Shown here one piece after another: positions 2,713 through 22,895 of a stretch of 64,000 nt of DNA; the stretch's first letter is position 1, and the number at the start of each line of letters is the position of its first letter. The position numbers and the translations under genes are program-made. Origin of the DNA: Rhizobium sp. C4 (lineage in GTDB: Bacteria; Pseudomonadota; Alphaproteobacteria; Rhizobiales; Rhizobiaceae); assembly GCF_021026315.1 (NCBI RefSeq), contig NZ_JAJNCX010000002.1, forward strand, positions 310,001-374,000. The letters are read 5' to 3'. Below the pieces are notes generated by a model that saw only the letters and a list, made by a program, of their open reading frames with translations, was not told the origin of the DNA and did not search any database.

Positions 2713-2762
2713 TTGACATTATTTGGATCGTTCCATATCCATATTGGAACGATCCAAATAAT
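2713..2762 (+). promoter_or_regulatory. Promoter with embedded 18-bp inverted repeat (LacI-type tandem operators)
   Basis: TTGACA at 2713-2718 is a consensus -35 element; 17 bp further TATCCA (2736-2741) is a weak -10. Overlapping it, ATTATTTGGATCGTTCCA (2718-2735) is repeated exactly inverted at 2745-2762, with a 9-bp spacer. Each arm is itself an imperfect palindrome centred on CG (TGGATCGTTCCA and TGGAACGATCCA), which is the usual form of LacI-family operators. Two repressor dimers could therefore sit side by side across the promoter. The LacI gene at 17328, inside the downstream operon, is the natural candidate ligand-responsive repressor. Confidence 0.7.
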
Positions 2763-2782
2763 AAGCATTTCGGGAGGAAAGC

Positions 2783-3787
2783 ATGCGGTGGGCGTTGGTG
2801 GGCGCGAGTACGATCGCGTCACAGCACATGATCCGGGCCATCCGCGCACAGGCGGGCAGCGCCGTCGCGCGTGTCGTCAGCGGCTCTCCGGATCGCGCCG
2901 AGGCCTATGCCCGCGAGCATGGTATCCCGGCCTTCGGCACTGACCTCAACGAGGCGCTGGCCGATCCGGCGATCGATGCGGTCTACATTTCCACCACGAA
3001 CGAGAAGCATCTCATGCAGGCGGTTGCGGCCATTGCCGCCGGCAAGCATGTGCTCTGCGAAAAGCCGCTGGCCATGACCGTTCATGATGCGGCCGCCATG
3101 GTGCGTGCGGCAGATGAGGCGGGCGTCACCTTTGCCACCAACCATCATCTGCGCTGCTCGGGTAGTCACCGCACGGTCAGGGCGCTGATCCGTGACGGGC
3201 GTGTGGGTAAGGTTCTGTCGGTGCGCGTCTTCCATGCGGTGCATCTGCCGGAAAGCCTGCAAGGCTGGCGCATCAATTCGGCGGCGGAAGGTGGTGGCGT
3301 CATTCCGGATATCACCGTCCATGATGCCGATGTCGTCCGCTTCCTGCTGGACGAAGACCCGGTCTCCGTCGTCGCGCAGGCGACGAGTTCGGGCATGGGG
3401 CAGGGCGTTGAGGATTCCGCGATGTCGGTCTGGGCCATGCCCTCCGGCGCGATGGTGATGAGCCATGAAAGCTTCACCCATCCCTTTGCCGGCAGCGGGC
3501 TTGAAGTTCACGGCACTGAGGGCTCGATCTTCGCGCGCGGCGTGATGACCCAGAAGCCGGTCGGCGAGATCGAACTGGTCGATGCCGCGGGCCGCCATGC
3601 GATCCCCTTCGATGCGCATGATCTCTACGTCACCGGCGTGGCCGAGTTCGAAGCCGCCGTGCGTGGCGAAGGTTCGCCTGCCGCAACCGGCATCGATGGC
3701 GTCAAGTCGCTCGCTGTCGCCGCAGCCGTACACGAGGCCGCCGAGACCGGCGCGCGCGTGACAATCAATTATGGAGGCATGAAGTGA
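2783..3787 (+). CDS. Gfo/Idh/MocA family NAD(P)-dependent oxidoreductase
   Basis: A 334-residue oxidoreductase. The N-terminal Rossmann fold begins at residue 1 (WALVGASTIAS) and carries the family signature CEKPLAMTV near residue 95. The C-terminal alpha/beta substrate domain follows (PDITVHDADVVRF, where the His is a usual catalytic position). Relatives oxidise or reduce a hydroxyl of sugars, inositols and sugar acids. It starts at ATG with the ribosome site GGGAGGAA and is the first gene after the palindrome-bearing promoter. Its TGA overlaps the next start. In this operon it probably performs one of the redox steps on the imported sugar; position and substrate are unknown. Confidence 0.88.
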   Translation: MRWALVGASTIASQHMIRAIRAQAGSAVARVVSGSPDRAEAYAREHGIPAFGTDLNEALADPAIDAVYISTTNEKHLMQAVAAIAAGKHVLCEKPLAMTVHDAAAMVRAADEAGVTFATNHHLRCSGSHRTVRALIRDGRVGKVLSVRVFHAVHLPESLQGWRINSAAEGGGVIPDITVHDADVVRFLLDEDPVSVVAQATSSGMGQGVEDSAMSVWAMPSGAMVMSHESFTHPFAGSGLEVHGTEGSIFARGVMTQKPVGEIELVDAAGRHAIPFDAHDLYVTGVAEFEAAVRGEGSPAATGIDGVKSLAVAAAVHEAAETGARVTINYGGMK

Positions 3788-5355
3788 GCAAGGTCGTCAG
3801 CGCTGCAGAAGCGGTTGCGCGCATTCCCGATGGCGCGGTGGTCACCGTCTCATCCTCCTCCGCACTCGGCTGTCCCGATTGGGTGCTGAAGGCGCTCGGC
3901 GAACGCTTCGATGCCGAAGGCCATCCGCGCAATCTCACGACGCTGCATCCGATTGCCGCTGGCGACATGTATGGCGTCAAGGGCATGGATCATATTGCCA
4001 AGGACGGTTTGCTTTCCCGTGTGCTCGCCGGCTCCTACCCCTCCGGCCCTTCGAACCTGCCGATGCCGAAGATCTGGAAGATGATCGTCGAGGATCGCGT
4101 TGCGGCCTATAATGTGCCGTCCGGCGTGATGTTCGACATGCATCGCGAAGCCGCCGCCCGCCGTCCTGGCGTGCTGACCCGCGTCGGCCTCGAAACCTTT
4201 GTCGATCCAATCCGCGAAGGCTGCGCGATGAATGCCAAGGGCGCGGCGCAGCCCATCGTGTCGCGTGTCGAATTTGCAGGCGAAACCTGGCTGCATTTCC
4301 CCAATATCATTCCGAATGTCTGCATTCTCCGCGCCACCACGGCGGACGAGCGCGGCAACCTGACCTATGAGCACGAAGGCGCCTATCTCGGCGGGCTGGA
4401 ACAGGCGATCACCGTGCGCAACCATGGCGGCCTCGTCATCGCGCAGGTCAGCCGGACGACGGCGGCCGGCAGCCTGCGCCCGCATGATGTGCGTGTGCCT
4501 GGCCATCTGGTCGATCTCGTCGTTGTCGATCCACACCAGAAACAGACCTGCGAAACGCCCTACGATCCGGCGATTTCCGGGCAGATCATGCAGCCCTGGT
4601 CGAGCTTCAAACTCGCCGAACATGGCGTCGAAAAGGTCATTGCGCGGCGTGCCGCCATGGAGCTGAAGGGCGGGATGACGGCCAATCTCGGCTTCGGCAT
4701 CAGCGCGCAGGTGCCGCGCATCCTGCTTGAGGAAGGCCATCCCGACGCTGTCACATGGGCGATCGAGCAAGGCGCGGTCGGCGGCATGCCGCTCACCGAT
4801 TTCGCCTTCGGATGCGCCTCTAATGCGGATGCCTATGTGCCGTCGCCGCAACAGTTCATCTACTTCCAGGGCGCCGGCTTCGATGTCTCGTTCCTCTCCT
4901 TCCTCGAGGTCGATATCGAGGGCAATGTGAATGTCTCCAAGCTCGGCAAGAAGCCGTACCTCACGGCCGGCTGCGGCGGGTTCGTGGATATCACGGCGCA
5001 TGCGAAGAAGATCGTCTTCTCCGGCTGGTTCGAGGCGGGTGCGGATATCGCATTGAGCGACAGCGGCATCCGCGTTGCCAAGCCCGGCAAGTTCACCAAG
5101 ATGGTGGAGCGCGTCGAGCATGTGACCTTCTCCGGCAACCGGGCGCGGGCGCAGGGGCAGGACGTGCTCTACATCACCGAGCGCTGCGTCATGCGGCTGG
5201 GTGAGGGCGGGCTGGTCGCAACAGAGATCATGCCGGGCATCGATGCGCAGGCCGATATCATCGGCGCATCGCAGGGCCGGGTTCGGGTTGCCGAAAATGC
5301 CACGACCATGCCGGCGAGCCTCTTTGCTGCCCAGCCGATGGGGTGGACGCCATGA
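3784..5355 (+). CDS. Family I CoA-transferase (fused alpha and beta domains)
   Basis: A 523-residue single-chain CoA-transferase of the YdiF/acetoacetate-type family I. The N-terminal half carries the alpha-type domain. The C-terminal half carries the active-site segment EQGAVGG with the expected catalytic glutamate at E328, followed by the FQGAGFD glycine-rich segment. These enzymes move CoA from a donor such as acetyl- or succinyl-CoA onto a carboxylic acid through a glutamyl-CoA intermediate. GTG start, overlapping the TGA of the previous gene (GTGA), so translation is coupled. A CoA-transferase is unusual in a sugar-import operon and points to activation of a sugar-derived acid. Confidence 0.88.
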   Translation: MSKVVSAAEAVARIPDGAVVTVSSSSALGCPDWVLKALGERFDAEGHPRNLTTLHPIAAGDMYGVKGMDHIAKDGLLSRVLAGSYPSGPSNLPMPKIWKMIVEDRVAAYNVPSGVMFDMHREAAARRPGVLTRVGLETFVDPIREGCAMNAKGAAQPIVSRVEFAGETWLHFPNIIPNVCILRATTADERGNLTYEHEGAYLGGLEQAITVRNHGGLVIAQVSRTTAAGSLRPHDVRVPGHLVDLVVVDPHQKQTCETPYDPAISGQIMQPWSSFKLAEHGVEKVIARRAAMELKGGMTANLGFGISAQVPRILLEEGHPDAVTWAIEQGAVGGMPLTDFAFGCASNADAYVPSPQQFIYFQGAGFDVSFLSFLEVDIEGNVNVSKLGKKPYLTAGCGGFVDITAHAKKIVFSGWFEAGADIALSDSGIRVAKPGKFTKMVERVEHVTFSGNRARAQGQDVLYITERCVMRLGEGGLVATEIMPGIDAQADIIGASQGRVRVAENATTMPASLFAAQPMGWTP

Positions 5356-6119
5356 GCGACGTTCATCTCGACATCCGTGGCCGCATCGCCGAAATCCGCC
5401 TCGACAATCCGACCAAGCTCAACGCCTTCACGGTGGATATGCTGGCGCGCCTTGCCGCCCATCTCGACGTGATCGAGCGGGATACGCAGATTGCCTGCGT
5501 TCTCGTCACCGCCGAGGGCGAGAAGGCCTTTTGCTCGGGCGCGGACATCAATGGCTGGGGCGACCTGACGCCGGCGGAATTCGCCCGCCACTGGGTTCGC
5601 GGCGGCCACCGCATTTTCGACCGGCTGGCGCGGCTTTCCAAGCCGACGATTGCCGTTCTCAACGGCCACGCCTTCGGCGGCGGGCTGGAACTGGCTTCGG
5701 CCTGCGACATTCGCGTAATGACGCCACGGGCGACGATCGCGCTGCCTGAGGCTGCCGTCGGCATCGTGCCGGGCTGGTCTGGCACGCAGCGCCTCGCGCG
5801 CCTGCTGCCTGAGCCGGTGCTGAAGGAAATGGCGCTGTTCGGCCGCCGTATCAGCGCCGAGCGGGCGCTGCAATTCGGCTTCGCGGCCGAGGTTGGCGAG
5901 GATGTTCGCGCGCTGGCCGAAACGATTGCCGCGCGCGTCACCGAGCTTTCGCCTCGCGCCGTCGAGATCGCCAAATCCATGATCCATGCTGCCCGCGGCG
6001 AAGATGCCGGCGCGATGATCGAAGCGCTGGGCAGTGCCGCCATTTCCGCCAGCGCCGACCGCAATGAAGGCGTTTCCGCCTTCAGGGAAAAGCGCAAACC
6101 CACATTTTCCGGACAATGA
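5352..6119 (+). CDS. Enoyl-CoA hydratase/isomerase family protein
   Basis: A 255-residue crotonase-fold protein. Visible are the two oxyanion-hole segments: the first around AFCSGADINGWGD and the second around AFGGGLELASACDIRV. The acidic position expected for a hydratase is retained in the LPEAAVGIVPGWSGTQRL segment. These proteins add water to, eliminate from, or isomerise CoA thioesters. ATG at 5352 overlaps the preceding TGA (ATGA). An upstream in-frame start at 5343 is less likely. Directly after a CoA-transferase, its substrate is presumably the CoA ester made by that enzyme, for example a hydroxyacyl-CoA derived from a sugar acid. Confidence 0.87.
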   Translation: MSDVHLDIRGRIAEIRLDNPTKLNAFTVDMLARLAAHLDVIERDTQIACVLVTAEGEKAFCSGADINGWGDLTPAEFARHWVRGGHRIFDRLARLSKPTIAVLNGHAFGGGLELASACDIRVMTPRATIALPEAAVGIVPGWSGTQRLARLLPEPVLKEMALFGRRISAERALQFGFAAEVGEDVRALAETIAARVTELSPRAVEIAKSMIHAARGEDAGAMIEALGSAAISASADRNEGVSAFREKRKPTFSGQ

Positions 6120-7645
6120 CCATGAATGACCTGACCGTGATCACCACCGCCGCTATCGCACTTCCGCAGGCCCCGTTTGAAGGCCGCCATTTCATCGACG
6201 GCGTATGGTGCGACAGTGCCAATGCCGAAACCTTCGAGCGCGTCTCCCCCTCGCATGGCGTCGTCGTCAGCCGCTCGGCCAAGGGTGGCCGCGACGATGC
6301 GGAACGCGCCATTGCCGCCGCCCGCAAGGCTTTTGACGCCGGCATCTGGAGCCGCATTTCCGGCAAGGAACGCGCCACCGTGCTGCTCAAGGTCGCGGAC
6401 CTGATCGAGGCCAATGCCGAGCGCATGGCGATCCTCGAAACGCTGGAAAGCGGCAAGCCGATCAGCCAGGCACGCGGCGAGGTCTCAGGTGCTGCCGATC
6501 TCTGGCGCTATGCCGCGTCGCTTGCCCGGACGCTCCATGGCGACAGCCACAATTCGCTCGGCGAACAGATGCTTGGCGTTGTGCTGAAGGAGCCGATTGG
6601 CGTCGTCTCGATCATCACGCCGTGGAATTTCCCCTTCTGGATCTTGAGCCAGAAGCTGCCCTTCGCGCTGGCCGCCGGCTGCACCTGCGTCGTCAAGCCG
6701 TCGGAAATGACGCCCTCGACAACCGTCATGCTGGCCGATCTCCTCACCGAGGCGGGCCTTCCCGCCGGCGTCGTCAACATCGTGCTTGGCTTCGGCCAGC
6801 CGGTCGGTCAGGTCATGTCTGAACATGCGGATGTTGACATGGTGACGTTCACCGGCTCGACGGCGGTCGGCAAGGCGATCATGGCGGCGGCCTCCGGCAC
6901 GCTGAAGAAAGTGGCGCTGGAGCTCGGTGGCAAGAACCCGCAGGTGATTTTCCCGGATGCCGATCTCGATTCCGCCGCCGATGCCGTCACCTTCGGCGTC
7001 TATTTCAATGCCGGCGAATGCTGCAATTCCGGCAGCCGCATCATCGTCCATGAGGATATTGCCGAGGCCTTCGTGTCCCGCGTCGTCGCACTTTCGAAGA
7101 AGGTCGCCTTTGGCGATCCGCTGAACCCGGAAACGCAGGTCGGGGCGATCATCTCGACGGCGCATCAGGACAAGATCGACGGCTATGTCCGCGCTGCCGT
7201 CGCAGCAGGCGCCAAGGTCGAGCTCGGCGGCGCGACGCTGCCGATCGCCGAACTGCCGGGCCGCTTCTACCAGCCGACCGTCGTCACGGGTGTGACGCCC
7301 GACATGCCGATTGCGCGTGAGGAGGTCTTCGGCCCGGTTCTCTCCGTGCTCACCTTCCGCACGCTCGATGAGGCCATCGATGTCGTCAACGACGCATCTT
7401 ACGGCCTCTCGGCCGGCGTCTGGAGCGAGAATGTCCACACATGTCTCGAATTTTCCCGCCGCGTGCAGGCCGGAACCGTCTGGACCAATACCTGGATGGA
7501 CGGTTTCCCGGAACTCACCTTCGGCGGGTTCAAGCAAAGCGGCCAGGGCCGCGAAATCGGCCCCTATGGCCTCGACGAATTCCTGGAAGTCAAAACCGTC
7601 GTCATGCGGGTTGGCCGGACACGGCCGAACTGGGTGAGGAGCTGA
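6116..7645 (+). CDS. NAD(P)-dependent aldehyde dehydrogenase
   Basis: A 509-residue aldehyde dehydrogenase of the betaine/aldehyde superfamily. Key residues: N171 in PWNFPFW, general base E269 in LELGGKNP, nucleophile C303 in FNAGECCNSGSR, and the FGGFKQSG segment near the C terminus. ATG 6116 overlaps the preceding TGA; ATG 6122 is an alternative start two codons later. It oxidises an aldehyde to an acid in the cytoplasm. In this operon it may make the acid that the CoA-transferase activates, or oxidise glyceraldehyde to the glycerate used by the terminal kinase. Confidence 0.9.
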   Translation: MTMNDLTVITTAAIALPQAPFEGRHFIDGVWCDSANAETFERVSPSHGVVVSRSAKGGRDDAERAIAAARKAFDAGIWSRISGKERATVLLKVADLIEANAERMAILETLESGKPISQARGEVSGAADLWRYAASLARTLHGDSHNSLGEQMLGVVLKEPIGVVSIITPWNFPFWILSQKLPFALAAGCTCVVKPSEMTPSTTVMLADLLTEAGLPAGVVNIVLGFGQPVGQVMSEHADVDMVTFTGSTAVGKAIMAAASGTLKKVALELGGKNPQVIFPDADLDSAADAVTFGVYFNAGECCNSGSRIIVHEDIAEAFVSRVVALSKKVAFGDPLNPETQVGAIISTAHQDKIDGYVRAAVAAGAKVELGGATLPIAELPGRFYQPTVVTGVTPDMPIAREEVFGPVLSVLTFRTLDEAIDVVNDASYGLSAGVWSENVHTCLEFSRRVQAGTVWTNTWMDGFPELTFGGFKQSGQGREIGPYGLDEFLEVKTVVMRVGRTRPNWVRS

Positions 7646-7697
7646 CGGACGTTCAGGACGCATCAAGTCACGCAAACGCTAAATCTAGGAGGAGTAC

Positions 7698-8951
7698 ATG
7701 CGTAGCTTTATCAAGACGGCATTGGCCACTGCGGCCGTGCTCGCAGCCACCACCACGCTTTCTCACGCAACCGACGTCGAAGTCCTGCATTGGTGGACGT
7801 CCGGCGGCGAGGCGGCAGCGCTCAACGTTCTGAAGGACGACCTCAAGGCCAAGGGCATCGGCTGGGTCGACATGCCGGTTGCCGGCGGCGGCGGCGAGGC
7901 CGCCATGACGGCGCTGCGCGCCCGCGTGACGGCCGGCAATCCGCCGACCGCCGTGCAGATGCTCGGTTTCGACATTCTCGACTGGGCCCAGCAGGGCGCA
8001 CTCGGCAATCTCGATCCCGTTGCCACCAAGGAAGGCTGGGACAAGGTCATTCCGGCAGCACTGCAGAAGTTCTCCAAATATGACGGTCACTGGATTGCAG
8101 CCCCCGTCAACGTGCATTCGACCAACTGGATCTGGATCAGCAAGGCAGCTCTCGACAAGACCGGCCTGAAGGCGCCCGAAAACTGGGATCAGCTGATCGC
8201 GGTTCTCGACAAGATGAAGGCCGATGGCATCACGCCGCTGGCGCATGGCGGCCAGCCCTGGCAGGAAGCCACGATCTTCGACGGCGTCGTGCTCTCCGAA
8301 GGCACGGATTTCTACAAGAAGGCCTTCATCGATCTCGACCCGGCCACGCTCGGCGGCGATAAGATGGCCGATGCCTTCACCCGCCTGATGAAGCTGCGCA
8401 CCTATGTGGACGACAACTTCTCCGGCCGCGACTGGAACCTCGCCTCAGCCATGGTCATCAACGGCAAGGCCGGCATGCAGATCATGGGCGACTGGGCCAA
8501 GGGCGAATTCCTGAAGGCCGGCCAGAAGCCGGGCAAGGACTTTGTCTGCATCCGCTTCCCCGGCACGCAAGGGTCCGTCACCTTCAACTCCGACCAGTTC
8601 GCGATGTTCAACGTGAAGGGCGACGACAAGATCAAGGCGCAGACGGAAATGGCGTCCTCCATCGAAAGCCCGAAGTTCCAGTCGGCCTTCAACGTGGTCA
8701 AGGGCTCCGTTCCGGCCCGCACCGACGTTCCGGACACCGCCTTTGACGATTGCGGCAAGAAGGGCATCAAGGATCTGGCCGAAGCCAGCGCGAAGGGCAC
8801 GCTGTTCGGCTCCATGGCGCACGGCCATGCGGCGCCGGCCTCCGTCAAGAGCGCCGTCTATGACGTCGTGACCAAGGCCTTCAACGGTGGCTTCAAGACC
8901 GGTGCCGAAGCCGCCAAGGCGCTCGCCGCCGCGGTTGCCGCCGCCAAGTAA
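7698..8951 (+). CDS. Sugar ABC transporter substrate-binding protein (CUT1 type)
   Basis: A 417-residue periplasmic binding protein of solute-binding family 1. It has a Sec signal peptide of about 24 residues (basic MRSFIK start, alanine-rich core, cleavage after THA-type SHA) before [18 protein letters not shown], the usual opening of glucose/oligosaccharide binding proteins. It has the strong ribosome site AGGAGGAG and the 52-bp gap expected of the most highly expressed gene of an importer. It is followed by a hairpin and then two permeases and an ATPase. The resemblance to glucose/mannose-type binding proteins suggests a mono- or disaccharide ligand; the exact ligand is not readable. Confidence 0.92.
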
Positions 8952-8967
8952 GCCCCTGAGCACAGGT

Positions 8968-8990
8968 GAGGGCGGCACCCTGCCGCCCTC
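8968..8990 (+). terminator. GC-rich hairpin after binding-protein gene
   Basis: GAGGGCGGCA, loop CCC, TGCCGCCCTC: a perfect 10-bp stem 17 bases after the binding-protein stop. It has no T tract, so it is more likely an mRNA-stabilising or partial-stop element that keeps binding-protein transcript above permease transcript than a full terminator. Confidence 0.6.
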
Positions 8991-9059
8991 CATCTCCGCC
9001 GCTTGCCGCGGAGAATTCCGGCTTTGCCCGGCACAATGACAATCGATGGGAGAAACGAC

Positions 9060-9953
9060 ATGGCCAGCTCAGCAGAGGCCGATTTCCGCACGCGCATACA
9101 GGACTGGCTGCCCAAGATCGTGCTGGCGCCGTCCTTCGCGGTGACGCTGCTTTTCGTCTACGGCTTCATTCTCTTCACCGTCTTCCTGTCGTTCACCGGC
9201 TCCAAGATGCTGCCGAACTATACGCTCGTCGGCTGGGAGAATTACAGCAAGCTCTGGGCGCTGGAAAACTGGCACATCGCCATCGTCAATATCGGCATCT
9301 TTGCCAGCCTCTATATCGTCATCTGCACGGTTCTCGGCCTGATGCTGGCGATCTTTCTCGACCAGAAGATACGGGGCGAGGGGGTGTTGCGGCCGATCTA
9401 TCTCTACCCGATGGCGCTGTCCTTCATCGTGACGGGGACGGCCTGGAAATGGTTCCTCGATCCGGGCATCGGGCTTGAACATGTCATGCATCTGTGGGGC
9501 TGGGAGAGCTTTTCCTTCACCTGGATCAAGGACAACAACATGGCGATCTACACGATCGTGCTCGCCGCCGTCTGGCAGACCAGCGGCTTCGTCATGGCCA
9601 TGTTTCTTGCCGGGCTGCGCGGCATCGACAACGAAATCCTCAAAGCCGCGCAGATCGATGGCGCATCGAGCTTCCAGCTCTATCGCCGCATCGTCATCCC
9701 GATGCTGCGTCCGGCATTCCTGTCGTCCTTCGTCATCCTCAGCCACCTCGCCATCAAGTCCTACGACCTCGTGATCGCGCTGACGGGCGGTGGGCCGGGG
9801 CGCGCAACCGAAATGCCGGCGACCTTCATGTATTCCTACACATTCACCCGCAACCAGATGGGCATCGGGGCAGCATCCGCCGTGATCATGCTGATGACGA
9901 TTGCCGCCATCATGGTTCCCTATCTCTATGCAGAGCTGAAGGAGAAGCAATAA
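9060..9953 (+). CDS. Sugar ABC transporter permease (MalF type)
   Basis: A 297-residue inner-membrane permease with about six membrane segments, the first at roughly residues 22-45. The cytoplasmic EAA loop appears as EILKAAQIDGASSFQLYRRI, which docks onto the ATPase. ATG 9060 is chosen because GGGAGA lies 6 bases upstream; longer in-frame starts at 9003 and 9036 lack a good ribosome site. Together with the next two genes it forms the CUT1 importer fed by the binding protein at 7698. Its stop overlaps the next start (TAATG). Confidence 0.9.
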   Translation: MASSAEADFRTRIQDWLPKIVLAPSFAVTLLFVYGFILFTVFLSFTGSKMLPNYTLVGWENYSKLWALENWHIAIVNIGIFASLYIVICTVLGLMLAIFLDQKIRGEGVLRPIYLYPMALSFIVTGTAWKWFLDPGIGLEHVMHLWGWESFSFTWIKDNNMAIYTIVLAAVWQTSGFVMAMFLAGLRGIDNEILKAAQIDGASSFQLYRRIVIPMLRPAFLSSFVILSHLAIKSYDLVIALTGGGPGRATEMPATFMYSYTFTRNQMGIGAASAVIMLMTIAAIMVPYLYAELKEKQ

Positions 9954-10831: not shown

Positions 10832-10835
10832 GATC

Positions 10836-11948: not shown

Positions 11949-13456
11949 GCGAGCACGACATCATCATTATCGGTTCCGGAATGGGGGGCGCGACGCTGGC
12001 CGCAGCGCTTGCCCCTTCCTTGGCTTCCTCCCGGCGCCGCATCCTGATCCTCGAAAAGGGAGAGCGGCTGCAACCCTCTCCCGCCGATCGGGATGCGGCT
12101 TCGATTTTCGCCCGCGGCCATTTCCGCCCCAAGGAGGAATGGCTGGACGGCGAGGGCAGGGCCTTCAATCCCGGCAACTACTACAATGTCGGCGGCAATT
12201 CGAAATTCTATGGCGCGGTGCTCATCCGCTACCGCAAGGAAGATTTCAGCCCCATGCGCCACATGGGCGGCACGACGCCCGGCTGGCCGCTTTCCTATGA
12301 CGAGATCGAGCCCTTCTACCAGCAGGCGGAAACGCTTTATCGCGTGCGCGGTGAACTCGGCGATGATCTGACCGAGCCGCGCCATTCCGGCAGCTATCCC
12401 TATTCGCCAGTCCGTGACGAAGCCCCGATTGCCGACCTGCGCCAGCGCTTGAAGCGCGTCGGCCTGCATCCGGCTTCGCTTCCGCTCGGCGTCGATATCG
12501 ACCGCTGGCTGAAGGGCGGCCAGACGACCTGGGATGCCTATCCCAATACCTGCGGCGGCAAGATGGATGCCGAGACGGTGGGGCTTGAAGAGGCCTTGAA
12601 ACATCCGAACGTGACGCTTCGGACCGGTTGCGAAGTGACGCGGCTGATTGCCGGCGCGGATGGCCGCATCACCGGCGTTGAGGTCACGGAAGCGGGGCAG
12701 CGGCAAGTTCTGGAAGCACCCGTGATCGTGCTGGCGGCAGGTGCCGTCCGCTCGGCCTCGATCCTGCTCGCCTCGGCCAATGAGCGTCACCCGAACGGGC
12801 TTGCCAACAGCTCCGATCAGGTGGGTCGCAATTTCATGAACCACAATTGCTCGGCCGTTCTGGCGCTGCATCCGTTCCGCAAGAACAATTCGGTCTATCA
12901 GAAGACCTTGATGGTCAACGACTTCTACCTGACCGGCGGGCCGAATGGCGAGCCGCTGGGCAATATCCAGTTGCTGGGCAAGATCACCGGCAGGATCCTG
13001 AAGGCGAATTCACCGCTGCCGGGGCCGCTCGCCGACTGGATCGCCGCGCGCGCGGTCGATCTCTATGCGATGTCGGAAGACCTGCCGAACCCGCAAAGCC
13101 GCGTGACGCTGCGCAGCGGGCAGATCATGCTCGACTGGAAGCGCTCCAACTGGGAGGCGCATCTGCGACTGGTCGAGAAGTTGAAGGCATTGCTGCGCAA
13201 GGCGGGCTATCCCGTCGTCCTATCGCGCCCCTTCGATCGCCGCACGCCGTCGCATCAATGCGGCACGGCGCGAATGGGCCGCGACCCGGCATCAAGCGTC
13301 GTCAATTCCTTTGGCCGCAGCCATGACCACCGCAATCTCTTCATCGCGGATGCTTCCGTCCTGCCGACCTCGGCGGCGGTCAATCCGGCGCTGACGATTG
13401 CAGCACTCTCGCTGCGCATGGCGAAACATATTCTCGAAACGGAGGCGATGCCATGA
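11945..13456 (+). CDS. GMC-family FAD-dependent oxidoreductase (sugar dehydrogenase-like)
   Basis: A 503-residue flavoprotein. The FAD-binding motif GSGMGGATLAAAL starts at residue 11, and the GMC C-terminal catalytic segment HQCGTARMG with the later NPALT region is present. Family members oxidise alcohols and sugars, often at C1 or C3. There is no signal peptide or twin-arginine motif, and no small helper subunit is encoded beside it, so it is probably a cytosolic enzyme acting after import. GTG start coupled to the ATPase gene. It differs clearly from the second GMC protein at 14227, so the operon encodes two distinct flavin oxidation steps. Confidence 0.85.
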   Translation: MSEHDIIIIGSGMGGATLAAALAPSLASSRRRILILEKGERLQPSPADRDAASIFARGHFRPKEEWLDGEGRAFNPGNYYNVGGNSKFYGAVLIRYRKEDFSPMRHMGGTTPGWPLSYDEIEPFYQQAETLYRVRGELGDDLTEPRHSGSYPYSPVRDEAPIADLRQRLKRVGLHPASLPLGVDIDRWLKGGQTTWDAYPNTCGGKMDAETVGLEEALKHPNVTLRTGCEVTRLIAGADGRITGVEVTEAGQRQVLEAPVIVLAAGAVRSASILLASANERHPNGLANSSDQVGRNFMNHNCSAVLALHPFRKNNSVYQKTLMVNDFYLTGGPNGEPLGNIQLLGKITGRILKANSPLPGPLADWIAARAVDLYAMSEDLPNPQSRVTLRSGQIMLDWKRSNWEAHLRLVEKLKALLRKAGYPVVLSRPFDRRTPSHQCGTARMGRDPASSVVNSFGRSHDHRNLFIADASVLPTSAAVNPALTIAALSLRMAKHILETEAMP

Positions 13457-14211
13457 GCCCGCTTGCTCTCATCACCGGCGGCCAGCAGGGCATCGGCTTC
13501 GGCATCGCGCAGGCGCTTGTCGCGGCCGGCTTCCGAGTGGCGCTCGTCGCCGAGATGTCGCCGGAGGCCGATGTCGTCGGCGAGGCGTTGTCCACGCTTG
13601 GGCCGGCCGCCCGCTATTTCCAGCATGATCTGCGCGACATTGCGCATGCGGAATCCTGCATTGCCGATGTCGAGCGCGCGCTGGGGCCGATCGACACCTT
13701 CGTGTCCAATGCAGGCGTACCGGCGAAAGTGCGCGGCGACATGCTGGATATGCTGCCCGAGAGCTTCGATTTCGTCTTCGACATCAACCTGCGCGGGGCC
13801 TTTTTCCTCGCTCAGGCGGCCGCCAGGCGGATGCTCTCAACGACCAGCGAACACTATCGCTCCATGCTCTTCGTCACCTCCGTCAGCGCCGACATGATCT
13901 CCATCGAGCGCGCCGAATATTGCATGTCGAAATCGGCGGCCTCGATGATGGCGCAGCTGTTTGCGGTGCGCATGGCACCGCACGGCATCGGCGTCTTCGA
14001 GCTTCGCCCCGGCATTATCGAAACCGGCATGACGGCGGGCGTGAAGGACAAATATACCGCCCGGATCGAGGGCGGCCTCGTGCCGGCCGCGCGCTGGGGG
14101 CAGCCGGGCGATATCGGCGCGGCGGTCGTGCCACTTGCCACCGGGAAATTCAGTTTTTCGACCGGTGCCGTGATCCCGGTCGATGGTGGCCTCTCGCTGC
14201 CGCGCTTGTAG
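13453..14211 (+). CDS. Short-chain dehydrogenase/reductase (SDR)
   Basis: A 252-residue classical SDR. The cofactor motif is TGGQQGIGFGIA from residue 8, the structural NAG is at residues 87-89, and the catalytic set is S143, Y156 and K160 (YCMSK). The C terminus ends in the usual PVDGG segment. It likely interconverts a keto and hydroxyl group on a sugar derivative with NAD(P). It overlaps the GMC gene by ATGA. Confidence 0.9.
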   Translation: MSPLALITGGQQGIGFGIAQALVAAGFRVALVAEMSPEADVVGEALSTLGPAARYFQHDLRDIAHAESCIADVERALGPIDTFVSNAGVPAKVRGDMLDMLPESFDFVFDINLRGAFFLAQAAARRMLSTTSEHYRSMLFVTSVSADMISIERAEYCMSKSAASMMAQLFAVRMAPHGIGVFELRPGIIETGMTAGVKDKYTARIEGGLVPAARWGQPGDIGAAVVPLATGKFSFSTGAVIPVDGGLSLPRL

Positions 14212-14226
14212 GAGCTAAAGACAAAA

Positions 14227-15813
14227 ATGCAGACGTCTTACGATTTCATCATCTGCGGTGGCGGCTCGGCCGGTTCGGTTCTGGCGGCGCGGCTTTCGGA
14301 AAACCCGAAGGCGCGCGTGCTGCTGCTGGAGGCTGGCGGGCGCGACTGGCATCCGTTCTACCACATGCCGGCAGGCTTTGCGAAAATGACCAAGGGCATT
14401 GGCAGCTGGGGCTGGCACAGCGTGCCGCAAAAGCACATGAACAACATGGTCATCCGCTACACCCAGGCCAAGGTTCTGGGCGGCGGCTCGACCATCAATG
14501 CGCAGATCTACACGCGCGGCAATGCGCTCGACTATGACGACTGGCGGCAGATGGGCTGCGAGGGCTGGTCCTACGAGGACGTCCTGCCCTATTTCCGCAA
14601 GGCGGAAGACAACGATACCTATGACAACCGCTATCACGGCAAGGGCGGCCCGCTCGGCGTCAGCAAGCCGGCAGCCCCGCTGCCGATCTGCGAGGCCTAT
14701 TTCAAGGCTGCCGGCCAGCTCGGCATTCCGACCAACCACGACATGACCGGCGAAAAGCAGGATGGCGTCGGTTATTACCAGCTGACCCAGCGCAACGTGC
14801 GCCGCTCGTCTGCCTCCGTCGCCTATCTGAACCCGGCGCGCAACCGGCCGAACCTGACGATCAAGACCGGCGCGCAGATCCTGCGTGTCATCGTCGAGAA
14901 CGGCAAGGCGGTCGGTGTCGAGGTGGCGGGCGAGGGGATCATCCGCGCGGATGTCGAGGTCATCATGTCGTCGGGCGCCATCGGCAGTCCGCGCCTGTTG
15001 ATGCTGTCCGGCATCGGACCGGCCGATCATCTGCGCTCCGTTGGCCTGCCGGTTGTCCACGACCAGCCGGGCATTGGCTCGAACTTGCAGGACCATGTCG
15101 ATCTTTTCGTCATTGCCGAATGCACCGGCCCGCATACCTATGACCGCTATGCCAAGCCGCATCTCTCGGTCCTCGCCGGCCTGCAATATCTCATCCAGAA
15201 AAAGGGGCCTGTCGCCTCCAGCCTCTTCGAGACGGGCGGCTTCTGGTATGCCGATCCGGAGGCCCGCTCGCCGGACATCCAGTTCCATCTCGGCCTCGGC
15301 TCCGGCATCGAGGCCGGCGTGACCGCGATGGAAAATGGCGGCGTGACGCTGAATTCGGCCTATCTGCGCCCACGCTCGCGCGGCACCGTTCGGCTTGCCT
15401 CATCCGATCCGCTGGCCGCACCCCTGATCGATCCGAATTACTGGGCCGACCCCTATGACCGCGAAATGTCGATCAAGGGCCTGAAGCTCGCGCAGGAGAT
15501 CATGCGGCAGGATGCACTGAAGCCCTATGTGAAGGCCGAGCGGCTACCGGGGCCGGATGTGCGCACCGAAGACGATTACTTCAACTACGCCTGCCGCCAC
15601 GCCAAGACCGACCACCACCCCGCCGGCACCTGCCGCATGGGGGCCGATCCAGCCGCCGTCGTCGATCCGCAATTGCGCTTCAACGGGATCGAACGCCTCC
15701 GCGTCGTCGATGCCTCGATCATGCCGACGCTGGTCTCTTCCAACACGAATGCGCCGACGATCATGATTGCGGAAAAAGCCGCCGACATGATCCGCGCCGC
15801 CCATGGCCTCTGA
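14227..15813 (+). CDS. GMC-family oxidoreductase (choline/alcohol dehydrogenase-like)
   Basis: A 528-residue GMC flavoprotein of the choline-dehydrogenase-like branch. The FAD motif is CGGGSAGSVLAARLSE near residue 10, the GMC signature GGGSTINAQIYTRG is near residue 90, the substrate-side motif SSGAIGSPRLLMLSGIG is central, and HPAGTCRMG with the active-site histidine is near the C terminus. It oxidises a primary or secondary alcohol to aldehyde or ketone and could deliver the substrate of the aldehyde dehydrogenase at 6116. It starts 15 bp after the SDR gene. Confidence 0.9.
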   Translation: MQTSYDFIICGGGSAGSVLAARLSENPKARVLLLEAGGRDWHPFYHMPAGFAKMTKGIGSWGWHSVPQKHMNNMVIRYTQAKVLGGGSTINAQIYTRGNALDYDDWRQMGCEGWSYEDVLPYFRKAEDNDTYDNRYHGKGGPLGVSKPAAPLPICEAYFKAAGQLGIPTNHDMTGEKQDGVGYYQLTQRNVRRSSASVAYLNPARNRPNLTIKTGAQILRVIVENGKAVGVEVAGEGIIRADVEVIMSSGAIGSPRLLMLSGIGPADHLRSVGLPVVHDQPGIGSNLQDHVDLFVIAECTGPHTYDRYAKPHLSVLAGLQYLIQKKGPVASSLFETGGFWYADPEARSPDIQFHLGLGSGIEAGVTAMENGGVTLNSAYLRPRSRGTVRLASSDPLAAPLIDPNYWADPYDREMSIKGLKLAQEIMRQDALKPYVKAERLPGPDVRTEDDYFNYACRHAKTDHHPAGTCRMGADPAAVVDPQLRFNGIERLRVVDASIMPTLVSSNTNAPTIMIAEKAADMIRAAHGL

Positions 15814-15826
15814 GAGGAATATGCCC

Positions 15827-16144
15827 ATGATGATCCGCCATATCGTTCTCATCCGCTTTCGCGCTGACGTCACCGAGGCTCAGGTCGCGGCCATGTTCGA
15901 AGAACTGGAAGCCATCCGCTCGAAAATCTCCGGCGTGCTCTCCATCACCTCGGGCCGCAGCGAAAGCCCCGAAAAGATCGAACGCGGCTACATGCACGGT
16001 TTCGTCGTCGATTTCGATGGCTGGGACGCGCTGGACGCCTATCAGACCCATCCCGATCACAAGGCGCTCGGCGCGAAGCTCGTCGCCCATGCTGAAGGCG
16101 GGCTCGACGGCATCCTCGTCTTCGATCTGCCGGTTCATGAATAG
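15827..16144 (+). CDS. Dabb (stress-responsive alpha-beta barrel) domain protein
   Basis: A 105-residue protein with the Dabb fold: MMIRHIVLIRFRADVTEAQ opening, GRSESPEKIERGYMHGFVVDF middle and HPDHKALGAKLV end, all usual for the family. GAGAGGA lies 8 bases before ATG 15827; starts at 15803, 15821 and 15830 are also in frame. Dabb proteins are small dimeric barrels found in stress responses and as accessory or catalytic proteins in some degradation pathways (for example olivetolic acid cyclase). Its job here is unknown. The position between catabolic genes suggests a pathway role. Confidence 0.82.
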   Translation: MMIRHIVLIRFRADVTEAQVAAMFEELEAIRSKISGVLSITSGRSESPEKIERGYMHGFVVDFDGWDALDAYQTHPDHKALGAKLVAHAEGGLDGILVFDLPVHE

Positions 16145-16154
16145 GAGACCTGCC

Positions 16155-17318
16155 ATGCTGAAACTGCCGAAGGCCGATCACACGCTCGAAGCCTATTCGC
16201 TCACCGGAACGCCGCTGATCCCGCGCGCCCCGCGCATACCGCTCACCCGCACCGCCTTCGCGGCAGCTCATGTCGTCTCCGATCCCTTGCGTGAGCGCAG
16301 TCCCTGGGACACGCGTCCGGCGGTCGATTGGGACGCGACGCTCGCCTTTCGCCAAGGTCTCTGGGACCAGGGCTTGGGCCTTGCCGAGGCGATGGACACG
16401 GCGCAACGCGGCATGGGTGTCGACTGGCTGACGGCGAAGGAACTGATCGAGCGGACCATGATTGCCGCCAAGGCGCATGCGCTGAAGCCGCGCGTGGCCT
16501 GCGGGGCGGGGACCGATCATGTCGCGCTTGCCGATCTAAAGGATGCCGACGCGATTCTCGCGGCTTACGAGACTCAGGCCTCGGCCATCGAGGCGGCCGG
16601 CGGGCAGCTCATCCTCATGGCCTCGCGCGCCTTCACGGCCATCGGCGCAGGCCGCGACACTTATCGCAAGGTCTATCGCCGGCTGATCGACGGCGCGGCC
16701 GAGCCTGTGATCCTGCATTGGCTGGGCGACATGTTCGATCCAGCACTGGCTGGCTATTGGGGCACGAGTGATGTTGCGGAAGCGAGCGATTTCGTGCTGG
16801 CACTGATTGCGGAAAATCCGGCAAAGGTCGATGGCATCAAGATCTCGCTGCTCGATCAGGCGCATGAAGAGGCTTTCCGCAGGGGTCTGCCGGCCGGTGT
16901 CCGGCTCTATACGGGTGATGACTTCAACTATGCGGAGCTGATTGCCGGCGACGGCGAGCACTATTCGCATGCGCTGCTTGGCATTTTCGCGGCGATTGCG
17001 CCGGTAGCCGCCCAAGCGCTGGAAGCGCTGGCTGAGGGCGACATGGCGACCTATCACCGGCTGTTTGCCCCGACCGTGCCGCTCAGCCGCGAGATTTTCC
17101 GCGCGCCGACGCGCTTCTACAAGGCGGGCATTGCGTTTCTCGCCTGGGTTAACGGATATCAGACGCATTTCATCATGCCGGCCGGTTTCCAGTCGAGCCG
17201 CGACATCACGCATTATTCGGAGGTTTTCCGGCTGGCGGATCAGGCAGGGCTTCTGGCCAAGCCCGATCTTGCCGTCCACAGGATGCGAACCTTGCTTGCG
17301 CTCCACGGAATCGAATAG
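16155..17318 (+). CDS. DUF993 family TIM-barrel protein (dihydrodipicolinate synthase-like)
   Basis: A 387-residue protein recognised as DUF993, a branch distantly related to the dihydrodipicolinate synthase/N-acetylneuraminate lyase aldolases. ATG 16155 follows AGGAGA. Visible blocks are RKVYRRLIDGAAEPVILHWLGDMFDPALAGYWG split across residues 170-205, and KVDGIKISLLDQ, where the lysine in DGIKIS is a candidate Schiff-base residue by analogy with the family lysine. If it is an aldolase, it could cleave a keto acid to pyruvate plus another fragment. No function is established that I know of. Confidence 0.75.
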   Translation: MLKLPKADHTLEAYSLTGTPLIPRAPRIPLTRTAFAAAHVVSDPLRERSPWDTRPAVDWDATLAFRQGLWDQGLGLAEAMDTAQRGMGVDWLTAKELIERTMIAAKAHALKPRVACGAGTDHVALADLKDADAILAAYETQASAIEAAGGQLILMASRAFTAIGAGRDTYRKVYRRLIDGAAEPVILHWLGDMFDPALAGYWGTSDVAEASDFVLALIAENPAKVDGIKISLLDQAHEEAFRRGLPAGVRLYTGDDFNYAELIAGDGEHYSHALLGIFAAIAPVAAQALEALAEGDMATYHRLFAPTVPLSREIFRAPTRFYKAGIAFLAWVNGYQTHFIMPAGFQSSRDITHYSEVFRLADQAGLLAKPDLAVHRMRTLLALHGIE

Positions 17319-17327
17319 GTTCCGCTG

Positions 17328-18341
17328 ATGGAGCGCAGACCGACCATTGTCGACGTGGCGCGCGAGGCAGGGGTGTCGAAATCCACCGTCAGCCTCGTGT
17401 TGCAGCAAAGCCCGCTGGTGCGGGAGGAAAAGCGCGTTCTGGTCCGCGAGGCGATGGACAAGCTCGGCTATGTCTACAATCGCTCGGCGGCCAATCTGCG
17501 CTCGGCCAATGTCGGTCTCATCGGTCTCGTCATCAACGACTTAAGAAACCCGTTCTTCACGGAATTCGCAACCTCGGTGCAAATGGCGCTCTCGGCGCGC
17601 GGCTATGCGACCGTGGTCGCCAATACTGATGAAGACTCCGCCATTCAGGCGCAGGTCGTCTCGGCGATCATCGAGCATGGCGTTTCGGCGCTCATCATTT
17701 CGCCGGCCTATGGCGAGGAGGCGGCGACCTTCGACGCGATTGCGCGCGCGAACATTCCGACCATGCAGGTGCTGCGCAAGGTCGATCCGCGCGTCGAACT
17801 CTTTCCCTTCGCAGCACCCGATTATCTCTCTGGCAGCCGGCTTGCAGCGGAACATCTGGTCAAGGGCGGCGCACGGCGCGTTGCCTTTGTCGGCGGCCTT
17901 GAGGGACGGGCGGTGGCGCAGGAGCGCATGTCCGGCTATTTCGAGGTGATGGCGGAAGCCGGCATCGAGCCCTTCGTTCTGCCCGGCCGCGCCAGCCGTG
18001 CTTTTGGCCACGAGGCGGCGGCGATCCTGACGCGTGACCATCCCGATATCGATGCGGCCATCTGTTTCTCCGACCTTGTGGCGTTGGGCCTCTTGTCCGG
18101 CTGCGCCCGCATCGGCCGCAAGGTGGGGGAGGATTTCCGCATCGTCGGCTTCGACGATATCGAGGAATGTGCGCAGGTCTATCCGCCGCTCACCTCGGTG
18201 CGCTGCGACATCGCCGGCTTCGGCAAGGACGTCGCCTCGACCGTGCTCAACTGGCTGGAAGACAGCCAGGCACCGATCACCGAACACAGGACACCGGTGG
18301 AACTGATCGTCCGGGACTCCAGCAGCGGCTTGCACTCATGA
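17328..18341 (+). CDS. LacI-family transcriptional regulator
   Basis: A 337-residue repressor. The LacI helix-turn-helix covers residues 4-24 (TIVDVAREAGVSKSTVSLVL), with the hinge helix NRSAANLRS near residue 50 and a periplasmic-binding-protein-like sensor domain from about residue 62 (VGLIGLVINDLRNPFF). It lies inside the operon it probably controls, 9 bp after the DUF993 gene and overlapping the glycerate kinase gene by ATGA. The CG-centred palindromes at 2718-2762 have the form expected for its operator. Confidence 0.9.
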   Translation: MERRPTIVDVAREAGVSKSTVSLVLQQSPLVREEKRVLVREAMDKLGYVYNRSAANLRSANVGLIGLVINDLRNPFFTEFATSVQMALSARGYATVVANTDEDSAIQAQVVSAIIEHGVSALIISPAYGEEAATFDAIARANIPTMQVLRKVDPRVELFPFAAPDYLSGSRLAAEHLVKGGARRVAFVGGLEGRAVAQERMSGYFEVMAEAGIEPFVLPGRASRAFGHEAAAILTRDHPDIDAAICFSDLVALGLLSGCARIGRKVGEDFRIVGFDDIEECAQVYPPLTSVRCDIAGFGKDVASTVLNWLEDSQAPITEHRTPVELIVRDSSSGLHS

Positions 18342-19591
18342 CCTCGACCGAAACCTTTCTGCGGGAGCTCTTCGACAAGGCGGTGGAGGTGGCCGACCCC
18401 ATGCGTTCGCTCGCCCGCTTCCTGCCCGAGCGGCCGGCGGGTCGGGTCATCGTTGTGGGTGCCGGCAAGGCCAGTGCGCGGATGGCTGAGGCCGTCGAGG
18501 CCGAATGGGGGCCTTGCGAAGGCCTCGTCATCACGCGCTACGGCTATGGCCGGCCCTGCCGGGGCATCGAGATTGTCGAGGCCGCCCATCCCGTGCCGGA
18601 TGAAAAAGGCCTAGCGGCAACGGCGCGCATGCTCGACCTGCTGAGGACTGCCGGCGAAGACGATTTCGTTCTGGCGCTGATCTCCGGTGGCGCGTCCGCC
18701 CTGCTCGTCGCACCCGCCGAAGGCGTCAGCCTTACCGAGAAGCAGGCGGTCAATGCGGCCCTTCTCGCCTCCGGTGCGCCGATCGACAAGATGAATACGG
18801 TACGCAAGCATCTCAGCCGCGTGAAGGGCGCGCAGCTTGCCGCAGCCGCCGATCCGGCGCGCATGCTCTCGCTTCTGATTTCCGATGTGCCGGGCGACGA
18901 TCCGGCCTTTATCGGCTCGGGACCGACCGTGGGCGATGCCTCGACGCCTGAGGATGCGCTGGCGATCCTGAAGCATTGGAAGATCGAAATTCCGCCAAGT
19001 GTGCGGGCGGCACTGTCTCGCCCGACCGGCGTGCTGGCGCCCGGTGACGCGCGCCTTTCGCGCGTCGAGAATGTCATCTATGCCGCACCCAAACAGTCGC
19101 TCGCGGCCGCTGCCGAACTGGCGGAGAGGGCGGGCTACGACGCGCGGCTGCTTGGCGATGCGCTGGAGGGGGAGGCGCGAGATGTGGCGAGAGCGCAGGC
19201 CGAGCAGGCCTTGAACATCCGCGCATCGCTCGGCCCGGGAGATCGTCCCGTCCTCCTGCTGTCTGGCGGCGAGCTTACCGTCACGCGGCGCGGCAATGGC
19301 GTTGGCGGCCCGAATGCGGAATTCTGCCTGGCGCTCGCCCTTGCGCTAAAGGGAGCGCCGGGCATCCATGCGATTGCCTGCGACACCGACGGGGTCGATG
19401 GTGCCGCGGAAGTCGCCGGCGCCGTCATCGGACCGGAGACGCTTCAGGCGGCAGCCACTGCCGGCGTCGATCCGCAGGCAGCCCTGGAGACCAATGATGC
19501 GCATCGCTTCTTCGGGGCAATCGGCGCCCAGGTCGTGACCGGCCCGACGCTGACCAATGTCAACGACTTCCGCGCCATCGCGATCGGTTGA
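18338..19591 (+). CDS. Glycerate 2-kinase, MOFRL family
   Basis: A 417-residue kinase of the GckA/TtuD (MOFRL) family that turns D-glycerate into 2-phosphoglycerate with ATP. Visible are the GAGKASARMAEAVE loop near residue 37, VLALISGGASALLVAP, NTVRKHLSRVKGAQLA, and the C-terminal MOFRL domain with LLSGGELTVT and GRGG-like GNGVGGPNAEF. It is the last gene of the unit and couples to the LacI gene by ATGA. It identifies glycerate as a probable end product entering lower glycolysis. Confidence 0.88.
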   Translation: MTSTETFLRELFDKAVEVADPMRSLARFLPERPAGRVIVVGAGKASARMAEAVEAEWGPCEGLVITRYGYGRPCRGIEIVEAAHPVPDEKGLAATARMLDLLRTAGEDDFVLALISGGASALLVAPAEGVSLTEKQAVNAALLASGAPIDKMNTVRKHLSRVKGAQLAAAADPARMLSLLISDVPGDDPAFIGSGPTVGDASTPEDALAILKHWKIEIPPSVRAALSRPTGVLAPGDARLSRVENVIYAAPKQSLAAAAELAERAGYDARLLGDALEGEARDVARAQAEQALNIRASLGPGDRPVLLLSGGELTVTRRGNGVGGPNAEFCLALALALKGAPGIHAIACDTDGVDGAAEVAGAVIGPETLQAAATAGVDPQAALETNDAHRFFGAIGAQVVTGPTLTNVNDFRAIAIG

Positions 19592-22704: not shown

Positions 22705-22780
22705 TTTTCCCTCGCCCCGCACCAAAAGTGACGTGATCGGGCAGCAAAGGCAAGCCCGGGAGACGGGTCTGGCAAGGCCA

Positions 22781-22794
22781 TGTGGAAATCCACA
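22781..22794. promoter_or_regulatory. Palindrome upstream of TRAP operon
   Basis: TGTGGA, AA, TCCACA: a perfect 6-bp inverted repeat about 100 bp before the dctP-like gene and 77 bp before the kinase gene. It is a candidate binding site for the response regulator in this divergent promoter region; no consensus could be checked. Confidence 0.35.
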
Positions 22795-22895
22795 ATGGAA
22801 AATCAGAAGGGGGCGCCGTATCAAACCAGCATACCGGAGCAGCGAGGGAGAGGACCTGGATCGCTGCGCCGGACTGATTGAAGGAGGACAAATCA

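Follow-up and report, generated by a model that had tools for sequence, protein, structure and literature searches.

The window analysed here, a 64,000-nucleotide stretch of Rhizobium sp. C4 (contig NZ_JAJNCX010000002.1, positions 310,001 to 374,000 of the forward strand), carries fifteen co-directional genes on the + strand at 2783-19591. With confidence somewhat above even, we read them as a LacI-controlled operon for the aerobic use of 1,5-anhydro-D-glucitol (AG), 1,5-anhydro-D-fructose (AF) and/or 1,5-anhydro-D-mannitol (AM) through a proposed coenzyme A (CoA) route. Through the conserved cluster to which the operon belongs, aerobic bacteria of soil and sea can probably consume AG and AF by an undescribed, CoA-activating pathway. 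That 1,5-anhydrosugars are the substrate class appears highly probable, and 2-keto-3-deoxygluconate (KDG) is a likely intermediate; elimination from a CoA thioester is at best evenly balanced. The computed features behind this reading are the gene families, the orthology and adjacency of a 1,5-anhydro-D-fructose reductase (AFR), a glucose-type binding protein, exchangeable back ends and a shared operator. An earlier note on this DNA, made from the sequence alone, had listed fifteen co-directional genes with named families, and Pfam recovered all of them.

The assignment of the substrate class starts from gene 1 (2783-3787, +), a Gfo/Idh/MocA protein whose best matches in the PDB are the solved AFRs 2glx (E 2.5e-104) and 4koa (6.2e-103), the next enzyme following at 9.3e-31. 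The first of these is given as the AFR of Sinorhizobium morelense in the available part of PMC5969746. A tree of 60 Gfo/Idh proteins, all from the collected loci plus the two solved AFRs, places gene 1, both AFRs and the CoA-transferase-adjacent genes in one 38-row clade (support 98/93), apart from other Gfo/Idh proteins; the clade also takes in a neighbour gene, L116_5833, on a long branch. Residues K94, R163, D176 and H180, which we take to be catalytic, are invariant in 34 distinct rows (these residue counts exclude matches below 40% identity or 85% coverage, and duplicate rows). Matches of gene 1 to NCBIfam were sub-threshold only. By sequence, gene 1 is an AFR orthologue, predicted to reduce AF to AM, and this orthology points to 1,5-anhydrosugars. 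The family assignment of the earlier note is thereby refined, and its range of sugars, deoxysugars and cyclitols is narrowed to 1,5-anhydrosugars. In Rhizobium oryzicola, a second, divergent AFR-like gene (L116:5833-6738, 39% identical to gene 1) lies directly upstream of the operon AFR.

Linkage of AFR to the operon was followed across 151 Rhizobiaceae genomes, that of the strain itself included. The CoA-transferase was found in 42 of them (E<=1e-180) and AFR in 32 (E<=1e-75). Every one of the 32 has its best AFR match on the strand of the CoA-transferase match and no more than 250 bp from it; one genome (G330) has two weaker AFR-like matches located away from the cluster. The protein nearest to 2glx, at 87% identity, is encoded inside such a cluster in G755 (locus L168, where the expected place of DUF993 falls beyond the stretch examined). 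On pSymB of Sinorhizobium meliloti Ak57 (CP090106.1), an AFR 99.7% identical to 4koa sits among genes annotated as LacI, 1,5-anhydro-D-fructose reductase, CoA-transferase, enoyl-CoA hydratase, aldehyde dehydrogenase (ALDH), binding protein, two permeases, ATPase, GMC, 3-ketoacyl-ACP reductase, GMC and glycerate kinase, and a divergent gene there, annotated as DHDPS-family, is DUF993. A near-complete candidate enzyme set is thus present in a tractable species.

The published view of this metabolism differs. According to the available text of a 2025 review (PMC12441222), no oxidative AG pathway has been described, and aerobic Rhizobiaceae convert AM, the product of AFR, to mannose by a P450-like hydroxylation whose enzyme is unidentified. 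The AF catabolism of S. morelense (Kuhn 2006, as described in that text) resembles the present system in having AFR as a dedicated enzyme in an aerobic member of the Rhizobiaceae; both solved AFRs also belong to the clade of gene 1, and 4koa lies in an S. meliloti operon of this type. As described there, the S. morelense route names AFR alone together with a presumed P450, whereas the operon holds ALDH, two GMC enzymes and CoA genes. Transferred to Rhizobium sp. C4, the published S. morelense proposal (section 5.1 of the review, as available) would confine the anhydrosugar to the head of the pathway. AM would then become mannose or glucose through an enzyme encoded elsewhere, for which a P450 has been proposed, and the CoA genes would act on some other acid or on a side chain. 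Five P450 matches do occur elsewhere in the genome, on other contigs, but none was found in the operon or on its contig. The direct neighbour of AFR is, moreover, the CoA-transferase in 32/32 genomes, and the KDG kinase found under the shared operator in other loci (see below) would be ill-suited to mannose. We regard this arrangement as improbable.

Comparison of more distant loci separates a common core from exchangeable endings. A search of genome contigs for Dabb gave 43 named loci from Rhizobium, Neorhizobium, Roseibium/Labrenzia, genera of Rhodobacteraceae and some unclassified metagenome-assembled genomes. At an identity threshold of 38%, GMC2 accompanies Dabb in 40 of the 43; L093, L099 and L105, without GMC2, were excluded. 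Back end A, defined by SDR and/or DUF993, is present in 25 of the 40 loci and back end B in 14; none has both, and one (L096) has neither. The A loci comprise SDR (24), DUF993 (22) and glycerate kinase (10), and the B loci a second, levoglucosan-dehydrogenase-like Gfo (11), a fumarate-reductase-like flavoprotein (13), KDG kinase (9) and 2-keto-3-deoxy-6-phosphogluconate (KDPG) aldolase (3). CoA-transferase and crotonase are present in both variants. Because SDR, DUF993 and glycerate kinase give way to Gfo, flavoprotein, KDG kinase and KDPG aldolase in relatives, the place of the first three in the pathway is probably downstream of the CoA stage. All four variant B kinases scanned have the KDG kinase model as their best NCBIfam match (243-265 bits, cut-off 400), and the variant B aldolases clear the Eda cut-off in 2/2. 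The entire gene set reappears in another family (L027/L028), headed by LacI and 40-75% identical, and this recurrence, together with GMC2 in 40/43 Dabb-found loci, indicates that the grouping is more than chance. The earlier note's succession of sugar-type importer, acid oxidation, CoA stage, hydratase or dehydratase, DUF993 cleavage and glycerate exit thus holds as one conserved, regulated unit.

Regulatory sites connect the two endings. The promoter region of the operon (2713-2757, +) contains TTGACA (2713-2718), followed by a pair of LacI-type operators, one at 2723-2736 and the other at 2744-2757. Both operators are unique in the 5.2-Mb genome when up to one mismatch is allowed, which suggests that the local LacI-family regulator (17328-18341, +; PF00356) probably regulates this operon alone. 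Among 31 further loci examined, 17 have the operator core 5' of AFR, a count that excludes AFR-like matches starting beyond the first 7 residues (e.g., L113). Of the 14 loci without the core, 13 have a different head LacI (about 40% identical) and L176 has none. In variant B, 16 flavoprotein loci were scanned for the operator TGGAWCGWTCCA, and in 12 of them it heads the Gfo-flavoprotein-KdgK unit (L069, L076, L078, L079, L089, L091, L092, L094, L095, L100, L102 and L127), at a distance of about 480 bp in L078 and already inside the Gfo match, at its 5' end, in L100 and L102. It stands 5' of GMC2 in L174 and is absent in L085, L103 and L182; the flavoprotein locus L124/L135 lay outside the scan. 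A single base shuffle of 29 scanned loci (554 kb) gave no operator match. This placement makes KDG kinase a member of the regulon, and both endings likely share KDG, or one of its stereoisomers, as an intermediate.

From these elements a route can be proposed, in which the reactions past AFR, the role of CoA and the order of steps are our reconstruction. The CUT1 system would import the anhydrosugar. GMC1 (11945-13456, +; 6a2u E 1.2e-36, 7w2j 4.1e-30, 8qve 6.5e-13) appears from these matches to be distant kin of FAD-dependent glucose and fructose dehydrogenases and of pyranose oxidase; its proposed role is that of a C2 dehydrogenase, oxidising AG to AF, which AFR would reduce to AM. GMC2 (14227-15813, +; choline-dehydrogenase-like, PF00732/PF05199; 9lq0, 8b7s) would then convert the C6 alcohol to the aldehyde and ALDH (6116-7645, +; PF00171) the aldehyde to the acid, giving 1,5-anhydromannuronate. 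The family I CoA-transferase (3784-5355, +; PF01144; YdiF-like, 2ahu E 2e-93), in which E328 is invariant (42 distinct rows), would form the C6 thioester and so acidify the C5 hydrogen. The crotonase/enoyl-CoA hydratase (5352-6119, +; PF00378) could next expel the beta C4 hydroxyl, leaving a 4,5-enol ether. E116 and E136 (numbering from 5343), presumably its two catalytic glutamates, are invariant in 46 distinct rows; no PDB match was found for it at E<=1e-50, so that its catalytic residues are assigned from conservation and general knowledge of crotonases. Sugars of the gluco/manno series carry H5 and O4 in a syn relation, which is also the geometry in which crotonases act.

Water would open the ring of the enol ether to 2-keto-3-deoxygluconyl-CoA, possibly assisted by the Dabb protein (15821-16144, +; PF07876; H7, Y74 and H80 invariant in 65 distinct rows) or unaided, and the CoA-transferase would hand CoA to the next acid and release KDG. 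In ending A, that of this operon, DUF993 (16155-17318, +) would split KDG into pyruvate and glyceraldehyde. Glyceraldehyde would go to glycerate, a step assigned to ALDH only by default, and the predicted MOFRL glycerate 2-kinase (18338-19591, +; PF13660, PF05161) would phosphorylate glycerate to 2-phosphoglycerate. In ending B, found in other bacteria, KDG kinase and KDPG aldolase would yield pyruvate and glyceraldehyde-3-phosphate. The usual sugar-acid dehydratase families were found neither among the 15 genes (Pfam) nor among the identified back end B genes, and the IlvD/Edd genes of the genome lie on other contigs only. A new mode of pyranose ring opening, namely a CoA-bound 1,5-anhydrohexuronate, crotonase elimination, an enol ether leading to KDG-CoA and ATP-free recycling of CoA, falls a little short of even probability. 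If true, it would be a CoA-based counterpart of the uronate lyases and the missing aerobic AG route; it would fill a gap in the aerobic breakdown of the very stable 1,5-anhydrosugars and bring CoA-thioester beta-elimination into carbohydrate chemistry.

Stereochemistry bears on the order of these steps. By Fischer projection, AM gives exactly D-erythro KDG, and AG and anhydrogalactitol give the L-threo compound; the direct formation of KDG from AM explains the place of AFR in the operon. In another order, C6 oxidation and CoA-dependent elimination would take place on AG itself. The product would then be 2-keto-3-deoxy-L-galactonate, in line with the L-threo outcome, to be epimerised to KDG by SDR (A) or by Gfo and flavoprotein (B), and AFR would serve imported AF only. 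Such a scheme employs SDR, flavoprotein and second Gfo, and in agar pathways 2-keto-3-deoxy-L-galactonate is epimerised by oxidation and reduction. Yet AFR and the CoA-transferase are linked in 32/32 genomes, and the AFR product AM reaches KDG with no epimerisation; we therefore consider elimination on AG unlikely. The oxidation of AM before elimination is retained as the proposed order.

The importer comprises a CUT1 solute-binding protein of the glucose-binding group (7698-8951, +), two ABC permeases (9060-9953 and 9953-10831, +; both PF00528) and a MalK-type ATPase (10836-11948, +; PF00005, PF17912). The model of the binding protein (pLDDT 86.1) is closest to 4r2b, solved with glucose (75% identity, target-normalised TM 0.93); glucose/galactose receptors come next, and 5dvf and 8hqq are also matched. 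Because AG is glucose minus its 1-hydroxyl, it is a plausible ligand; glucose itself is possible as well. A second binding protein (48-50% identical to gene 5) lies in or beside the cluster in L076, L082, L094, L095, L176 and L027 and perhaps serves another anhydrosugar isomer.

A glucose-type receptor would also suit another substrate, for example a deoxy, keto or branched sugar that resembles glucose, or such a glycoside, converted to a beta-keto acid, activated with CoA and cleaved, with the AFR-like enzyme acting on a different 2-keto compound. AFR-like proteins at 50-55% identity may have other substrates, the Klebsiella deoxyribonate pathway follows an analogous logic, and the SDR (13453-14211, +; PF13561) clears the NCBIfam model NF009386 for 3-ketoacyl-ACP reductase (319 bits, cut-off 250), with N112, S143, Y156 and K160 invariant in 55 distinct rows. 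Yet the 15 genes include no lactonase, thiolase or beta-keto acid cleavage enzyme, back end B indicates KDG, and a solved AFR heads a nearly identical gene set in S. meliloti. A substrate of this kind is unlikely. Three specific candidates were also dropped: a 2-deoxyribose/deoxyribonate-type pathway, for lack of a thiolase or beta-keto acid cleavage enzyme; a glycoside with an acyl aglycone, since there is no hydrolase and back end B indicates KDG; and a glucarate-type pathway to tartronate semialdehyde, to which the KDG kinase of back end B is unsuited.

The candidate cleavage enzyme, DUF993 (PF06187), appears to be a divergent class I aldolase. Its sole solved relative, 4dnh, carries no function. 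Foldseek with the DUF993 model (pLDDT 59.6) returned 4dnh and then little besides NAL and DHDPS structures, a KDO aldolase and a keto-deoxy-galactarate dehydratase, at E 5e-5 and weaker and query-normalised TM mostly 0.4-0.5. A comparison by hhalign with 30 DHDPS-family proteins gave 91% probability (only DUF993 rows shorter than 400 aa entered the profile). It aligned K229, present in 57/57 rows (48 distinct), with the Schiff-base lysine K160, found in 29/30 DHDPS rows. Fold kinship and the aligned invariant lysine make cleavage of a 2-keto-3-deoxy acid more likely than that of an acyl-CoA. The earlier note's cleavage step is accordingly kept, as that of a class I pyruvate aldolase, and an acyl-CoA substrate becomes the less likely one. 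A role as a beta-keto-acid cleavage enzyme was considered and dropped, because fold and lysine indicate NAL/DHDPS. No publication on DUF993/PF06187 was found in the literature searched, and the family would gain a testable function as a pyruvate-type aldolase.

DUF993 was found in 25 of 289 genomes of the class searched. In 16 of 25 non-window loci (1.5-kb flanks; L002-L025, e.g. L033-L036) it adjoins a different Gfo/Idh protein, 29-35% identical to gene 1, which suggests that the family probably operates in other pathways too. A reduced relative of the cluster, with no importer or AFR, occurs in L029 (G117) and L030 (G272) and combines CoA-transferase, crotonase, SDR, DUF993 and an AP_endonuc_2 isomerase. 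L029 additionally holds GMC2, FAA hydrolase, an HbpS-like protein, glycerate kinase and MFS, and L030 an acyl-CoA dehydrogenase and a 32% identical Dabb; this is probably a sister pathway.

Several observations weigh against the proposed anhydrosugar route. The AFR of the window is just 53-55% identical to characterised AFRs, and among the 42 Rhizobiaceae genomes that encode the CoA-transferase, 10 lack AFR at the cut-off used, at least three of these 10 (G699, G702 and G322) carrying the variant B second Gfo. The closest receptor carries glucose, so that specificity of transport for anhydrosugars is a prediction. SDR in ending A, flavoprotein and second Gfo in ending B, and Dabb have no firm role in the route; the NF009386 match implies that SDR could act on an acyl thioester instead. 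No Dabb match was found in the S. meliloti locus, which fits a dispensable helper. The back ends are incomplete, with glycerate kinase in just 10/25 A loci and KDPG aldolase in 3/14 B loci, some loci ending early. The Fisher's exact value for SDR against flavoprotein (4.7e-8) ignores shared ancestry, in loci picked via Dabb and with some contigs ending early. Matches of the KDG kinase and of the glycerate kinase fall under curated cut-offs; the latter has two NCBIfam matches, both to glycerate 2-kinase models. The fold model of DUF993 is moderately confident only. DHDPS/NAL aldolases carry their catalytic tyrosine in a YNxP motif, and the corresponding position is Trp189 in 57/57 DUF993 rows, which marks DUF993 as a divergent member of the superfamily. 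Finally, the P450-like proposal for Rhizobiaceae, as given in the available text of PMC12441222, departs from this route.

Known systems share parts of the proposed route. The anaerobic AG/AM route of gut bacteria (Ma et al., per the available text of PMC12441222) has the same proposed substrates. It is described there as relying on phosphorylation by a phosphotransferase system and on the oxygen-sensitive glycyl radical enzymes YbiW/PflD, whereas here ABC import, oxidation and a CoA thioester would be used. Neither a phosphotransferase system nor a glycyl radical enzyme was found among the 15 genes, to which this search was confined. In the available text of PMC6365646, the deoxyribonate pathway of Klebsiella michiganensis likewise combines a sugar acid, acyl-CoA chemistry, a CoA-transferase and a glycerate kinase exit, and it is the nearest precedent for CoA chemistry on a sugar acid with such an exit. 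The same text gives it a CoA-synthetase, a hydroxyacyl-CoA dehydrogenase and a thiolase, and mentions no ABC importer, GMC, AFR, crotonase or DUF993. The earlier note knew of no pathway joining a sugar importer and GMC dehydrogenases to acyl-CoA chemistry. This needs qualifying, since the Klebsiella pathway is proposed to run through acyl-CoA intermediates, though that text mentions neither such an importer nor a GMC enzyme.

Endings of this type have a further parallel. The non-phosphorylated Entner-Doudoroff pathway employs a KDG aldolase from the DHDPS superfamily, oxidises glyceraldehyde and uses a MOFRL-family glycerate 2-kinase. In contrast, KDG would arise here from an anhydrouronate and not from gluconate through a dehydratase, and DUF993 is a distinct family. 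The earlier note had put the pathway forward as a candidate undescribed one, and no description of the gene set appeared among the literature matches listed (AG, AF and AFR topics; bioRxiv and most subscription journals lay outside the search).

The layout of the operon is compact. Six of the 14 gene junctions overlap by 4 bp and one by 1 bp, and the others are spaced 4-108 bp; the description of most genes as overlapping was thus slightly overstated. The widest gaps, 52 and 108 bp, flank the binding protein gene. Starts were revised for permease 1 (9060), permease 2 (9953), Dabb (15821, or 15803), DUF993 (16155) and glycerate kinase (18338). The earlier note's single regulated promoter is borne out as regards the TTGACA and the two operators; one transcript is inferred. 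A generic sigma-70 scan did not list the operon promoter; its sole match is on the minus strand, at another place. Terminator-like sites were no commoner than in shuffles (10 vs mean 12.0). Upstream on the same strand lies a ROK-family regulator gene (1337-2515), directly adjacent and with no clear tie to the operon. The other neighbours are a beta-lactamase-fold protein (24-1181, minus) and, downstream, a two-component system (20105-22896, minus). All three are taken as outside the unit.

Among the relatives, a beta-phosphoglucomutase-type HAD phosphatase follows in 12/40 core loci (L067, L071, L072, L074 and other Roseibium-type), 9 of the 12 having no glycerate kinase match. In several Roseibium-type loci, a second, divergent LacI separates ALDH from the binding protein. 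An open reading frame of Thioclava B-type loci (L091:11459-12496) has no Pfam match and may be antisense. Red algae form 1,5-anhydrofructose from starch. At least part of the operon lies on a 49-kb plasmid of Roseibium porphyridii, from the red alga Porphyridium (NZ_CP120864.1; L185, 1-12105).

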